Of a DNA stretch of 40,514 nt, positions 21,447-25,170 are shown piece after piece (positions within the stretch are counted from its first letter, which is position 1; each line of letters starts with the position of its first letter). Source of the DNA: an uncultured Nitrospira sp. (lineage in GTDB: Bacteria > Nitrospirota > Nitrospiria > Nitrospirales > Nitrospiraceae); contig CABVRO010000016.1 in NCBI GenBank assembly GCA_902500715.1, forward strand, positions 1 to 40,514. Direction: 5' to 3'. The notes below the pieces were generated by a model, which worked only from the letters and a program-made list of their open reading frames with translations, was not told the origin of the DNA and searched no databases. A program made the translations under genes and the position numbers.

Positions 21447-22742
21447 TCAGCCGGAGCTCTGCAACCATCGCACGACTGCTTCACGCATCCGGACAGAAAG
21501 AAGCCATTTGGCGATAATCCGATGAAACGGTTTCAAACAGATGGCCAGCATACGAAGTCGTCGTTGAAACCGGAACCAGGGCAACGAACGGGTGAGCACC
21601 GCTGCTTCCGCACGACAGAGCGCAGCCCCCAATCTCCACCGCTCAAACCACGAATCTTTGAGGGTCATGTATAGAGCCTCTGCAGAATCTTCATGAATCC
21701 CATGACAAGGATTCTTCAACAGTTGCGTAGGCATCTTTCGAACGAGGATGGGGATGTCTGCATCTGCCTCTATCTCCTGAAGTATCGTCGGTGGGACGGC
21801 GGTATCGAGGAGGCTGTGAGCCACCGCCAGGCCGAGCAGGACCAACCGTCGACATCTCCACTCGTCTGCTTGAAACAGCACACGACTCCAATCTAAGGCC
21901 GGCCGCCGACGCACGAGCTCCGCCACATCGCAGACCCACTTCAACTGCTCCCAGGCATGTTTTGACCCATGCACGCAAAGAAGAATCAACAGATCCTCAG
22001 GACAGAGGCCCATCACCGATTTGGCTGGTAAGTGAACGGGTTTCAGTCTTTCCCAAAACACGCTCCGATCAAGCCGAAATCCGAAATGCCGGCGAGCCAT
22101 CACCCACTGAAGATCAACCGCAATAATGCTGTTTCGCCTCTGAAAAAAGTGGTACGGCTCCCCTGACTCCTCCCCGCTTCCCATGTCCTGGCTGGTCAGT
22201 TGATACCCCTGAGACCATAAGACCTTCCGAGCTTGAGGAATCGCTCCCTGCTCAACGATCAAATCGATATCCGCACATTCCCGTAAACCTAGATCGCCAT
22301 ACGCCGTCTGTGCAAGCGTGATGCCTTTAAAGGGAATCGCCGTCACCCCCTTAGCCGCCAACGCATCCAGTAAGGTCACGAGTTCTTTAGCCAACAAGCT
22401 ATTCAAAAGAGCGTTCGCTTGATTGTGCCGACGAAAAGCTTCGTGGATGGAAGAAGGCACGGCAGCCGGACAAATCGTGACAAGATTGCGATATACTAGC
22501 GGCGCCACGCCATGGGTTCTTGAGAGCTTCCAGACCAGCTCCCAATCAATTCCATCACAGGCCAAATCTGCTACTTCGACTCGAATAAACTCATTCATCG
22601 TCGTTCGCGCACAGAGTGCAAGTAATCGTCCCTCCGCATGCATGAGGGCCAAACCTGGCGCCGGCGTCATCCCCTTACGCGAGATACCTCCCAGACGAGA
22701 AGAGTTCCATTGTGCGACGGTGGACTTAGGACGCTGTCCCAT
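21447..22742 (-). CDS. Nucleotidyltransferase-family protein of the HprK/PqqD RiPP-like locus
   Basis: 431 residues; the first ~45 before ARTTMNEFIRVEVADL may be extra. It matches the nucleotidyltransferase group found with lasso-peptide and HPr-kinase-related cassettes: a helical lead (LVWKLSRTHGVAPLVYRNL), a helical block ending IPFKGITLAQTAYGDLG, then R-E-C-A-D-I-D-L-I-V with Asp158 and Asp160 as metal-binding carboxylates, and HGSKHAWEQLKWVCDVAEL. The family is thought to transfer nucleotidyl groups to small molecules or peptides; in lasso clusters a homologous gene accompanies the kinase. The start codon follows the kinase stop by one base, so the two are tightly coupled. Confidence 0.85.
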   Translation of the reverse strand: MGQRPKSTVAQWNSSRLGGISRKGMTPAPGLALMHAEGRLLALCARTTMNEFIRVEVADLACDGIDWELVWKLSRTHGVAPLVYRNLVTICPAAVPSSIHEAFRRHNQANALLNSLLAKELVTLLDALAAKGVTAIPFKGITLAQTAYGDLGLRECADIDLIVEQGAIPQARKVLWSQGYQLTSQDMGSGEESGEPYHFFQRRNSIIAVDLQWVMARRHFGFRLDRSVFWERLKPVHLPAKSVMGLCPEDLLILLCVHGSKHAWEQLKWVCDVAELVRRRPALDWSRVLFQADEWRCRRLVLLGLAVAHSLLDTAVPPTILQEIEADADIPILVRKMPTQLLKNPCHGIHEDSAEALYMTLKDSWFERWRLGAALCRAEAAVLTRSLPWFRFQRRLRMLAICLKPFHRIIAKWLLSVRMREAVVRWLQSSG

Positions 22743-22743
22743 G

Positions 22744-23784
22744 TCAGTTCTCTCTCCTTGCTTGCCGCTTCTCCAGAAGAGGCGTTACCAGCCATGGCAA
22801 CTCCAGGACATCGCGTCCGAAGTGGAGTCGATAACAGTCCGTTTGCTCGACCAGACGAACAAGTGCTTGAAACTCCTGGCGCGCTACCTCAGCGTCATAC
22901 ACGAGCAACGAATGCGGAAGGATCATCTCCAATGCCACCTTTTTGGGCAAGGGCTCCAGACAACTGTGTGAAGAATCGAGCACCTCGGGAAAGAGGATCA
23001 CGCTTGGCTCGCAAGGCTGGCCTAATGGCCCCGAATATATATCCTCAGCATGGAAATAGCGCTTAGGAACCCCTGCGTGAAGCACAGATGGCGGAGCCTC
23101 TCGCAGTTCAGGAAAGAACGATACGGTGTGATCGGTCACATTGATCTTGAGCGGATACGGGAGGATCTCCACACGCGTGCCACTGACCCGAAAGAACGGG
23201 TGATCGTCGGAGAGGTAACGATACCCTGCTCGCAGCAGGGATAGGAACGAGGTGGTTTTCCCCCGCCCACTGAAACCAGGAATCAACACCCCCTGCCCCT
23301 TGTGCTCCAGGGCAGTGGCATGAAACGTATACAATCCGCACCGCTTCAGAAGTTCCGTCATGGCAAAATGGACAAAACTCACCCGGATATCCGGCGCCAT
23401 GGCCTCCGGCCTCACCAGATAACCATGAGCAGCTTGCGAGGCTCCATCGATGACGACCAAACCTTGTTCATGAAAATCGGCAATCAATAGGCCGTTGTTT
23501 GAATATATGTCGCAGGACCATGTCCTCTTCCCATCAGGACCGATTACGAGGCCAGAGTCGCCATACAACAATTGCGCTGAACCGGAAATCCGGACCGGAA
23601 CATCCCCACGCCGCTCAATCGCGTCGAACTCCATCCGCATCGACGGAGCCACAACGGTGTCGCAGTGAAAGTGATGGAGTAACGCTTCAACGGAATGTGC
23701 CAACTCGGACGAATTGGTGGTGAATGTCATCTCTATGCCATGGACGGAGAGTAGAAGTTCCTTCATTGAAGACGCCATGAACAT
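22744..23784 (-). CDS. HPr kinase-related kinase (HprK-rel-A type)
   Basis: 346 residues. The kinase domain at about 145-250 has F-H-A-T-A-L-E, then the Walker A loop GFSGRGKTT at 170-178 and Y-L-S-D-D-H at 190-195, in the same order as HPr kinase/phosphorylase. The N-terminal 140 residues differ from true HprK. Related kinases occur in lasso clusters such as paeninodin, where they phosphorylate the precursor, and in the 'HPr-rel-A' cassette with PqqD and a nucleotidyltransferase. The ATG has AAGGAGAA upstream. It follows the precursor-like peptide gene by 115 nt, which holds a strong hairpin, and precedes the nucleotidyltransferase gene by one base. Confidence 0.87.
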   Translation of the reverse strand: MFMASSMKELLLSVHGIEMTFTTNSSELAHSVEALLHHFHCDTVVAPSMRMEFDAIERRGDVPVRISGSAQLLYGDSGLVIGPDGKRTWSCDIYSNNGLLIADFHEQGLVVIDGASQAAHGYLVRPEAMAPDIRVSFVHFAMTELLKRCGLYTFHATALEHKGQGVLIPGFSGRGKTTSFLSLLRAGYRYLSDDHPFFRVSGTRVEILPYPLKINVTDHTVSFFPELREAPPSVLHAGVPKRYFHAEDIYSGPLGQPCEPSVILFPEVLDSSHSCLEPLPKKVALEMILPHSLLVYDAEVARQEFQALVRLVEQTDCYRLHFGRDVLELPWLVTPLLEKRQARREN

Positions 23785-23840
23785 TACCGCTTCTCCTTTT
23801 CAGCCTTCTGCCTGTCGTCACTACCTTACAGGTATAGGGC

Positions 23841-23871
23841 GAGCTGGCCGGTCTACGTAACCGGCCAGCTC
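23841..23871 (-). terminator. Perfect 12-bp hairpin between precursor peptide and kinase genes
   Basis: GAGCTGGCCGGT (23841-23852) and ACCGGCCAGCTC (23860-23871) pair perfectly over a 7-nt loop, itself containing the palindrome TACGTA. There is no T run on the minus strand, so complete termination is unlikely. A stable hairpin directly after a short precursor gene commonly protects the 5' message or partly stops transcription, giving more peptide mRNA than enzyme mRNA. Confidence 0.65.
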
Positions 23872-23899
23872 CATAGCTCTCACTGGAGCGAGTGGCATG

Positions 23900-24013
23900 T
23901 TATACGGGTGTTCGATCCAGCACGCGGGACAACTGAATGGCCGTCACGTCGCGCAGCAACTCATGTTTCACGAGCGCCGGCTTGACGTATTCGGGTTTTA
24001 TCTGTCGCTCCAT
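23900..24013 (-). CDS. Lasso-type RiPP precursor-like peptide, 37 residues
   Basis: This gene is short and easily missed. ATG at 24011-24013, stop TAA at 23900-23902, with AAAGGAGGTGAG eight bases before the start. Residues 9-24 read YVKPALVKHELLRDVT. This fits the lasso leader pattern Y-x2-P-x-L-x3-G-x5-T in the positions of Tyr9, Pro12, Leu14 and Thr24; the Gly is replaced by Glu18. If, as in known lasso precursors, Thr is the penultimate leader residue, the core is IQLSRVLDRTPV, with Asp33 at core position 8, a standard macrolactam position. Ile at position 1 and a four-residue tail are unusual. Its start lies six bases after the stop of the PqqD-like gene, and its ribosome site overlaps that gene's end. 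Confidence 0.8.
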   Translation of the reverse strand: MERQIKPEYVKPALVKHELLRDVTAIQLSRVLDRTPV

Positions 24014-24019
24014 TCTCGC

Positions 24020-24337
24020 TCACCTCCTTTCTGTGTGAAGTAATCCTTCCTGCTCCAAAAGAACGATCAACTCCAACATATCGTCCTGAGCCTGCTGTTC
24101 AGACACGTCAAACCTGGCGCAGATTGTTGAGTGAATCTGCCGTAGCGACTGCTCCCCTTTGCACAAATCCCAGATGGTTGATCCGACAACATTAAGCGTG
24201 TAGTAGCGGCCGGAGCTCAGATTCAACAGCACACTTTCACCATCAAGAACCGTGCTGTGGACCTGTTCATCCTGCCTGGGAAACAGTTCTGACAATTCGA
24301 GCTGACGCTCACTCCACAGATGCACAGTGGCAGGCAT
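24020..24337 (-). CDS. PqqD-family peptide recognition protein (lasso B1-like)
   Basis: 105 residues, ATG with AGGAG eight bases upstream. The sequence has the PqqD/RRE pattern: V-L-D-G-E-S-V-L-L-N-L-S-S-G-R-Y-Y-T-L-N-V-V-G-S-T-I-W-D-L near 31-58 followed by a helical C-terminus (FDVSEQQAQDDMLELIVLLEQEGLL). These winged helices bind leader peptides; in lasso systems the B1 protein binds the Y-x2-P leader motif, which the adjacent peptide has. The N-terminal ~25 residues are extra. It is the first gene of the pqqD-like, peptide, kinase, nucleotidyltransferase group. Confidence 0.9.
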   Translation of the reverse strand: MPATVHLWSERQLELSELFPRQDEQVHSTVLDGESVLLNLSSGRYYTLNVVGSTIWDLCKGEQSLRQIHSTICARFDVSEQQAQDDMLELIVLLEQEGLLHTERR

Positions 24338-24662
24338 AGGGATACTCCTGGTTCAGATTGCTGGAAACATGTGACTGCTCCGATACCATCATTCGCTCCA
24401 CAACCGATTGTCCCGCGAAGGTTTGCTCTCCCCACGAGTAAACCCAGCACATCATTGCAAGATACGGGCAAAACTATCGTCATCACGCTCGTTTCGCCAT
24501 TCCCAGTGAGATTGGGATCCACCTCCCTTTAGGGGAGCTGGATTTTTTTCATCGAAAACGGATGTAACGGCCTAGGGCTGGGGGCGCTGATGGGTTTCAA
24601 AATTCGACTAGGCCCGCCAGGTCCAGCCGACACCAAAAGAGAGGGAATGTGCAGAGGAGCGC
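24338..24662. other. Gene-poor gap between the B2-like and PqqD-like genes
   Basis: 325 bases with no convincing gene. A minus-strand frame with many Cys (24223-24522) runs into the PqqD-like gene and is not supported. The region probably contains the promoter of the PqqD-like gene, but I cannot place -35/-10 boxes with confidence. It does contain a strong plus-strand terminator at 24518-24549. Confidence 0.6.
24518..24549 (+). terminator. Orphan plus-strand Rho-independent terminator
   Basis: TCCA-C-CTCCC, loop TTTAG, then GGGAG-C-TGGA (24518-24542): a 9-pair stem with one symmetric C/C mismatch, followed at once by seven T (24543-24549). It points along the plus strand, whereas all nearby genes are on the minus strand, so it could end an antisense RNA. 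On the minus strand it has no T run. Confidence 0.7.
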
Positions 24663-25103
24663 TCAGGAAATGCGAGATGATTGAGCACTTGAAGAAACCA
24701 GGGATTGCGGGAAGGTAACCGTCACCGTAAACGATTGCCAGTAGGAGGACGGCTCAAGAAACACATGACCATCGAGCACCAGCCATGCGTGTCCCTCCAA
24801 CTGCTGATTCAGCTTCAACACTCCACATTTGAATTGAACAGGAAGGCCGGCACGGCGGGCGAAAAAAAACAGCGCTAACGCTCGAGGAAAACAATTTCCC
24901 TTCGGATTGTATGGAAACAGCGCCAGCCACCGATCCACATAATAGGCCACGCCTTCCATCGCGTGCTCATCCGGATCGGCTGAAAGCTCGCATGATAACC
25001 AGCCAAGCAACCGCCTGAGACTCGTCAGGCGAGACGCGATGCGAACCCCAACGACCACAACACCAGTGGCAACGATCACTCGATATTTCCGGACCAGGGA
25101 CAT
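24663..25103 (-). CDS. Lasso peptide biosynthesis B2-like transglutaminase-fold protease
   Basis: 146 residues from the ATG at 25101-25103; a TTG three codons earlier is possible and neither has a clear ribosome site. A hydrophobic segment at about 9-22 precedes the catalytic domain. GNCFPRALALFFFARRAGLP places the nucleophile Cys at 71 and G-H-A-W-L-V-L-D-G-H-V-F the His at 105 with Asp111 nearby, the plan of lasso B2 leader peptidases. In lasso systems B2 cuts the leader after B1 has bound it. The gene lies 67 nt after purF and 325 nt before the PqqD-like gene, on the same strand. Confidence 0.88.
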   Translation of the reverse strand: MSLVRKYRVIVATGVVVVGVRIASRLTSLRRLLGWLSCELSADPDEHAMEGVAYYVDRWLALFPYNPKGNCFPRALALFFFARRAGLPVQFKCGVLKLNQQLEGHAWLVLDGHVFLEPSSYWQSFTVTVTFPQSLVSSSAQSSRIS

Positions 25104-25170
25104 GCCAATCAATCTAACAAGGCGGAGGAGAAAGTCCAGACGATCCTATGAACCGGCGAGGACAACGAGG

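Follow-up and report, generated by a model that had tools for sequence, protein, structure and literature searches.

The window analysed here is a complete contig of 40,514 nucleotides (CABVRO010000016.1; contig C16 of genome G000 in our numbering) from an uncultured Nitrospira sp., whose assembly comprises 3.66 Mb and is 93.5% complete. Its minus strand carries a cassette of five genes that points to a ribosomally synthesized and post-translationally modified peptide (RiPP). The purine gene purF lies just upstream of the cassette, and downstream of the nucleotidyltransferase gene follow genes for a TlpA-like protein, a metallo-beta-lactamase-fold (MBL) protein and a TPR protein. Read along the minus strand, the features are:

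24663..25103, minus strand: B2-type leader peptidase (over the NF033537 cut-off; catalytic Cys and His invariant)
24462..24540, minus strand: conserved leader element ahead of pqqD (a single copy in each genome that has it)
24020..24337, minus strand: PqqD-family RiPP recognition element (RRE), B1-like (Pfam PqqD, 7e-18; relatives in the PDB)
23900..24013, minus strand: precursor of 37 residues, MERQIKPEYVKPALVKHELLRDVTAIQLSRVLDRTPV (ribosome-binding site, conservation, pN/pS)
23841..23871, minus strand: hairpin of 13 bp immediately behind the (last) precursor gene (present in the intact loci examined; covariation)
22744..23784, minus strand: HPr-kinase-like kinase (profile matches and a predicted fold, the latter a low-confidence model)
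21447..22742, minus strand: NTP_transf_5 nucleotidyltransferase-fold protein (PF14907, 5e-67)

An earlier interpretation of this DNA made without database searches (the sequence-only reading) had listed the same five genes on one strand, and all are present as it stated. It had also reported that cyclase and exporter genes are missing from the 40 kb. Consistent with this, we found no Asn-synthetase gene in the window and no ABC exporter among the window proteins scanned.

The 37-residue open reading frame is a real gene, as judged from the strong ribosome-binding site that precedes it (AAAGGAGGTGA), from its conservation (59-97%) in 25 copies from 20 congener genomes and from the scarcity of nonsynonymous differences (pN 0.007 against a synonymous pS of 0.113 over codons 9-31 in six close species). 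The 25 precursors have the sequence YVKPxLVKHELLRDVTAIQLSR in common and vary over roughly the last six residues. In the window the leader motif reads Y9..P12.L14..H17E18.....T24, and the serine behind it, Ser29, is invariant in 25/25 precursors of the genus. The last six codons have a pN of 0.23 in the same six species, close to the rate of synonymous change in the neighbouring genes. Positive selection on the tail was therefore rejected, as relaxed constraint suffices to explain this value.

The enzymes encoded around the precursor resemble those of lasso peptide systems. The protease reaches 53 bits with the lasso_biosyn_B2 model NF033537 (cut-off 33) and matches Pfam Transglut_core3. Counted from a TTG start at 25112 (an ATG start lies at 25103), its catalytic residues are Cys74, His108 and Glu120, the first two of which are invariant among congeners. 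For the RRE the best NCBIfam model is lasso_PqqD_Bac, with a score under the cut-off, and the nearest solved relatives are TbiB1 (1.6e-8), PbaB1 (9x90; 5e-8) and, weakly, LppB (9x8z; 0.18). The kinase matches Hpr_kinase_C (1e-4) and HprK_rel_A (8e-15), both under cut-off, and its residues His155, Lys176, Asp193 and Asp194 are invariant among congeners. A His-Lys-Asp-Asp set is named as catalytic in lasso kinases (PMC13381572). The predicted kinase fold is PEPCK/HprK-like, and because the confidence of this model is low (pLDDT 67) it was used to assign the superfamily alone. The sequence-only reading had connected the kinase with the HprK-rel-A cassette (TIGR04352), in which an HPr-kinase-related protein likewise adjoins PqqD and a nucleotidyltransferase. 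Membership was rejected because the kinase scores 54.7 bits against a TIGR04352 cut-off of 200; in addition, no HPr-rel-A PqqD model matched the RRE with an E-value of 1 or less.

We compared 29 congener genomes. The order purF-B2-PqqD-peptide (one or two copies)-kinase-NTP_transf_5-tlpA-MBL is found in about 20 of them, including Candidatus Nitrospira defluvii. An intact peptide together with a full or nearly full kinase is present in 20/29; eight genomes have lost or broken these genes, and in G020 the locus is cut by a contig end. Four genomes (G002, G009, G011 and G017) are split assemblies with part of the cassette on another contig, and the B2 gene of G009 looks frameshifted. Kinase genes of G008, G010 and G018 that seemed to contain a stop are not pseudogenes, as their proteins are a little shorter and end normally at this stop. 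Peptide, kinase and B2 are jointly lost or damaged in 8/29 genomes, for which a tree built from purF and MBL requires four changes or more, and we therefore regard them as one module. An intact PqqD gene is kept in three of these eight genomes. Loss of the peptide while all other genes stay, which the sequence-only reading had named as an observation that would speak against it, was not seen. The cassette is a conserved system and not a broken lasso cluster. In G007 (L129 5592-6628, contig G007:C46) a transposase-like open reading frame lies between purF and pqqD, where relatives have B2.

A lasso peptide requires a cyclase and an acidic acceptor residue. The sequence-only reading had proposed as one option that the cyclase gene lies at another place in the genome, in which case a ring would be closed between Ile26 (or Ala25) and Asp33. 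The leader spacing (YxxPxL...T(-2)), the B1-type RRE and the B2 protease are indeed lasso-like, the core in the window has Asp at position 8, and 10/25 precursors of the genus have an acidic residue at core positions 7-9. However, 15/25 have none at these positions and 10/25 have none at all. Moreover, the highest score that any protein of the 29 congener genomes attains with the lasso-cyclase model is 307 bits, below the cut-off of 525. The genome itself encodes five Asn-synthetase-like proteins at full length; all carry the Cys2 motif of glutaminases (MCG), exceed the asparagine-synthase cut-off and are most similar to amidotransferase or asparagine-synthase models. A sixth is truncated at the edge of its contig and its N-terminus is missing. 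At least 14 more such proteins are encoded in the complete congener genomes G001, G004 and G022, with Cys2 in all those listed, and these complete genomes are likewise without a recognisable cyclase. A cyclase gene directly beside the cluster in relatives, which the sequence-only reading had said would argue against it, was found neither in congeners nor in the sister-genus clusters read. The precursors of sister genera have Asp or Glu at core position 7-9 in 16/33 cases, and the C-terminal serine that is the phosphorylation site in paeninodin-type peptides occurs in only 5/25 precursors of the genus. A hidden lasso cyclase was thus rejected on the family models, the Cys2 N-termini and the sister-genus comparison, and we consider a lasso product very improbable.

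The closest described systems are the linear polyphosphorylated peptides (LPPs) of Bacillota, reported in 2026 and as restricted to that phylum, which combine an RRE, an HprK-like kinase, a nucleotidyltransferase, a SipW-like peptidase and an exporter and have no cyclase (PMC13381572). Their reference cluster is lppAKBSDN of Paenibacillus alginolyticus; the precursors contain YxxPxVLxHQxIxFETxxS, and core Ser3 receives as many as four phosphates from the kinase LppK (PMC13381572). The Nitrospira cassette shares with them the discrete RRE, the kinase, the nucleotidyltransferase and the lack of a cyclase, as well as a leader of the form Y1-P4-[LV]6-H9-[QE]10-[IL]12-T16, a conserved serine just behind the threonine and a variable C-terminus. 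Within this leader Y, P, hydrophobic 6, H9, hydrophobic 12 and T16 are in register, whereas Q10 is replaced by E and F14-E15 by D-V. His9, which is present in both the Nitrospira and the LPP leaders, is missing from the lasso leader consensus. Paeninodin- and pseudomycoidin-type lasso clusters for their part have B1, B2, an HprK-like kinase, a nucleotidyltransferase and the leader spacing in common with the cassette, but differ from it in having a cyclase and an exporter, and most Nitrospira precursors are without a ring acceptor. In all, the cassette would appear to work like an LPP system without being a member of that family as defined.

Gene order, leader register, the invariant Ser29, the kinase and B2 residues, the joint losses and the absence of a cyclase over cut-off lead us to propose, as the probable reading, that the cassette makes a linear, phosphorylated RiPP by means of RRE, kinase and B2 and without a macrolactam. 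The chemistry is inferred throughout, as are the order of steps, the point of cleavage and both the function of the product and its fate. The PqqD-like RRE would dock the leader through Y9xxP12xL14, and the HPr-kinase-like enzyme would phosphorylate Ser29 just behind it. B2, with the RRE as adaptor, would then cut after Ala25 at a lasso-type Thr(-2) site and release IQLS(P)RVLDRTPV (core IQLSRVLDRTPV), with no macrolactam being formed. The nucleotidyltransferase-fold enzyme would decorate the phosphate, probably by adding a nucleotide or sugar-phosphate to the phosphoserine, and it has a further, peptide-independent role. The sequence-only reading had already suggested, as its second option, a linear peptide on which cleavage, phosphorylation and nucleotidylation replace macrolactam formation. 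The first two steps fit well and match the described LPPs; the third is unproven because the nucleotidyltransferase gene persists without the peptide.

Several observations weigh against this proposal, the retention of the nucleotidyltransferase in genomes without peptide being one of them. LPPs are cleaved by the SipW-like LppS and not by a B2 cysteine protease, and the phenylalanine and glutamate that matter for LppS in the LPP leader end FET are absent from the Nitrospira leader end DVT. An unseen SipW-like peptidase was rejected, as no TIGR02228 match was found in the genome itself. The serine is at T+5 in the Nitrospira genus, which places it one residue further from the threonine than the serine of sister genera and two further than that of LPPs (T+3). 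The LPP cluster carries an MsbA-like exporter, and none is linked to the cassette in the Nitrospira genus. Finally, the nearly neutral evolution of the last six residues is odd for a mature core. The last two points would fit a peptide that acts inside the cell as a cofactor or regulator, comparable to the carrier peptides of PQQ and mycofactocin, with RDVTAIQLSR as the functional part and the tail discarded; the near-invariance of residues 9-31 would fit as well. We consider this unlikely, since sister genera have long and diverse cores, with an ABC exporter in one variant, the invariant stretch is largely leader that binds the RRE and the protease, and eight congeners do without the peptide.

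The nucleotidyltransferase follows a course of its own. It is intact in 29/29 genomes and is the only gene of the cassette to survive intact in all eight that lost peptide, kinase and B2, and it must therefore have a use beyond the peptide module. In the peptide-less genomes G007, G014, G016, G025 and G027 its omega is 0.14-0.29, against 0.18 in cassette-bearing relatives. Asp158 is invariant among congeners and Asp160 nearly so. Its predicted structure (pLDDT 83) is weakly nearest to MenT1, ANT(2'') and FKRP (E about 1e-3), a likeness that fits tailoring, immunity and housekeeping alike and does not choose among them. The retention under purifying selection in the peptide-less clade, together with the weak resemblance to the antibiotic nucleotidyltransferases ANT(2'') and LnuA, would be expected of an immunity enzyme against a toxic peptide made by the cassette itself or by a relative, kept by non-producers. 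This explanation seems rather unlikely to us. In pseudomycoidin an enzyme of the same annotation, PsmN, is proposed to act on the phosphate of the phosphorylated peptide, and hexoses are added (PMC13381572), while LppN is inactive in its LPP host (PMC13381572). Sister-genus clusters carry a nucleotidyltransferase of their own, as expected of a tailoring enzyme; toxicity is not known, and an unrelated housekeeping role explains the retention equally well. Outside the genus, the enzyme has its closest relatives (>40% identity) in genomes in which a kinase match is present too, so that retention of the nucleotidyltransferase alone looks like a trait of the Nitrospira genus in our sample.

We found no paper on Nitrospira lasso peptides or on the present cassette in the open-licence literature. 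The linear phosphopeptide reading suggests that a lasso cyclase is not needed for lasso-type leader recognition and B2 cleavage to operate, and it would extend a RiPP family described only in 2026 from Bacillota to Nitrospirota, with a different protease. It would also give nitrite oxidisers a conserved, testable peptide of a kind not described for them in the literature searched. As peptide, kinase and B2 were repeatedly lost with the nucleotidyltransferase kept, the role of these enzymes, inactive in the LPP host and hexose-adding in pseudomycoidin, becomes directly testable.

Our family sample covered 147 genomes; a kinase match, in some cases a weak one, is present in 75. In sister genera the purF-tlpA site is occupied by larger clusters whose peptides combine the same leader with unrelated cores, for example GQSGYNCDDNKKRRWWNND and QKYKEQCQKAVDAVCVS. 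The register Y1-P4-H9-T16 is kept in 33/33 of their precursors as in the genus family. Where the leader ends in TA or TT, T+4 is a serine (16/16 precursors); where it ends in TG, this position holds Ser (6) or Tyr (11), in 17/17. Under the lasso T(-2) rule T+4 is core position 3, whereas the serine of the window's genus is at core position 4. Two layouts were seen: (i) PqqD-peptides-kinase-NTP_transf_5-B2 and (ii) B2, an ABC exporter, a 330-residue protein, a RimK-like ATP-grasp protein, PqqD, kinase, peptides with two FA_hydroxylase genes interleaved, and a second NTP_transf_5. The 330-residue protein has no Pfam match and appears ATP-grasp-like by eye only. More tentatively, these loci may represent a separate, undescribed RiPP class of Nitrospiraceae that joins a lasso-type leader and RRE/B2 front end to interchangeable chemistries, either kinase and nucleotidyltransferase alone or kinase, ATP-grasp, FA-hydroxylase-like proteins and ABC exporter, and in which the nucleotidyltransferase has an independent conserved function in the genus. 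The sister clusters are located at L207 (G114:C38), L208, L209, L172, L173, L217 and L218, with genes for the exporter, the ATP-grasp protein, the 330-residue protein and FA_hydroxylase proteins in some; they possibly make a graspetide-like hybrid RiPP. At L207 (14480-14800) a PilZ-domain (cyclic di-GMP-binding) protein is encoded between purF and the peptide cluster.

Two further conserved elements accompany the cassette. The leader element at 24462-24540 has at most one exact match per genome, always at the cassette locus, in 16/29 genomes, and is retained in some decayed loci. A known riboswitch was rejected, as no Rfam match was found up to E=10 and there is little covariation. In all intact loci examined, the hairpin at 23841-23871 stands behind the last precursor copy and, where there are two copies, is not found behind the first. 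It shows two-sided changes at 8 pairs (0/500 shuffles). An intrinsic terminator was rejected because the T-run is missing, and for the same reason the hairpin is more likely an mRNA-stabilising or partially attenuating element that would favour precursor expression.

Related gene combinations occur elsewhere in the genus. A fused PqqD-HprK protein of 409 residues is encoded at L039 7674-10736 (G012:C6) and L041 1-1228 (G020:C854). At L039 it adjoins two proteins, one NTP_transf_5-like and one of 115 residues whose N-terminus is Tat-like, forming a second, different kinase/nucleotidyltransferase peptide system. L131 (G022:C1) and L132 (G021:C1) combine PqqD with three radical-SAM-like proteins, an HprK-like kinase, a nucleotidyltransferase-like protein and a signal-peptidase-like protein.

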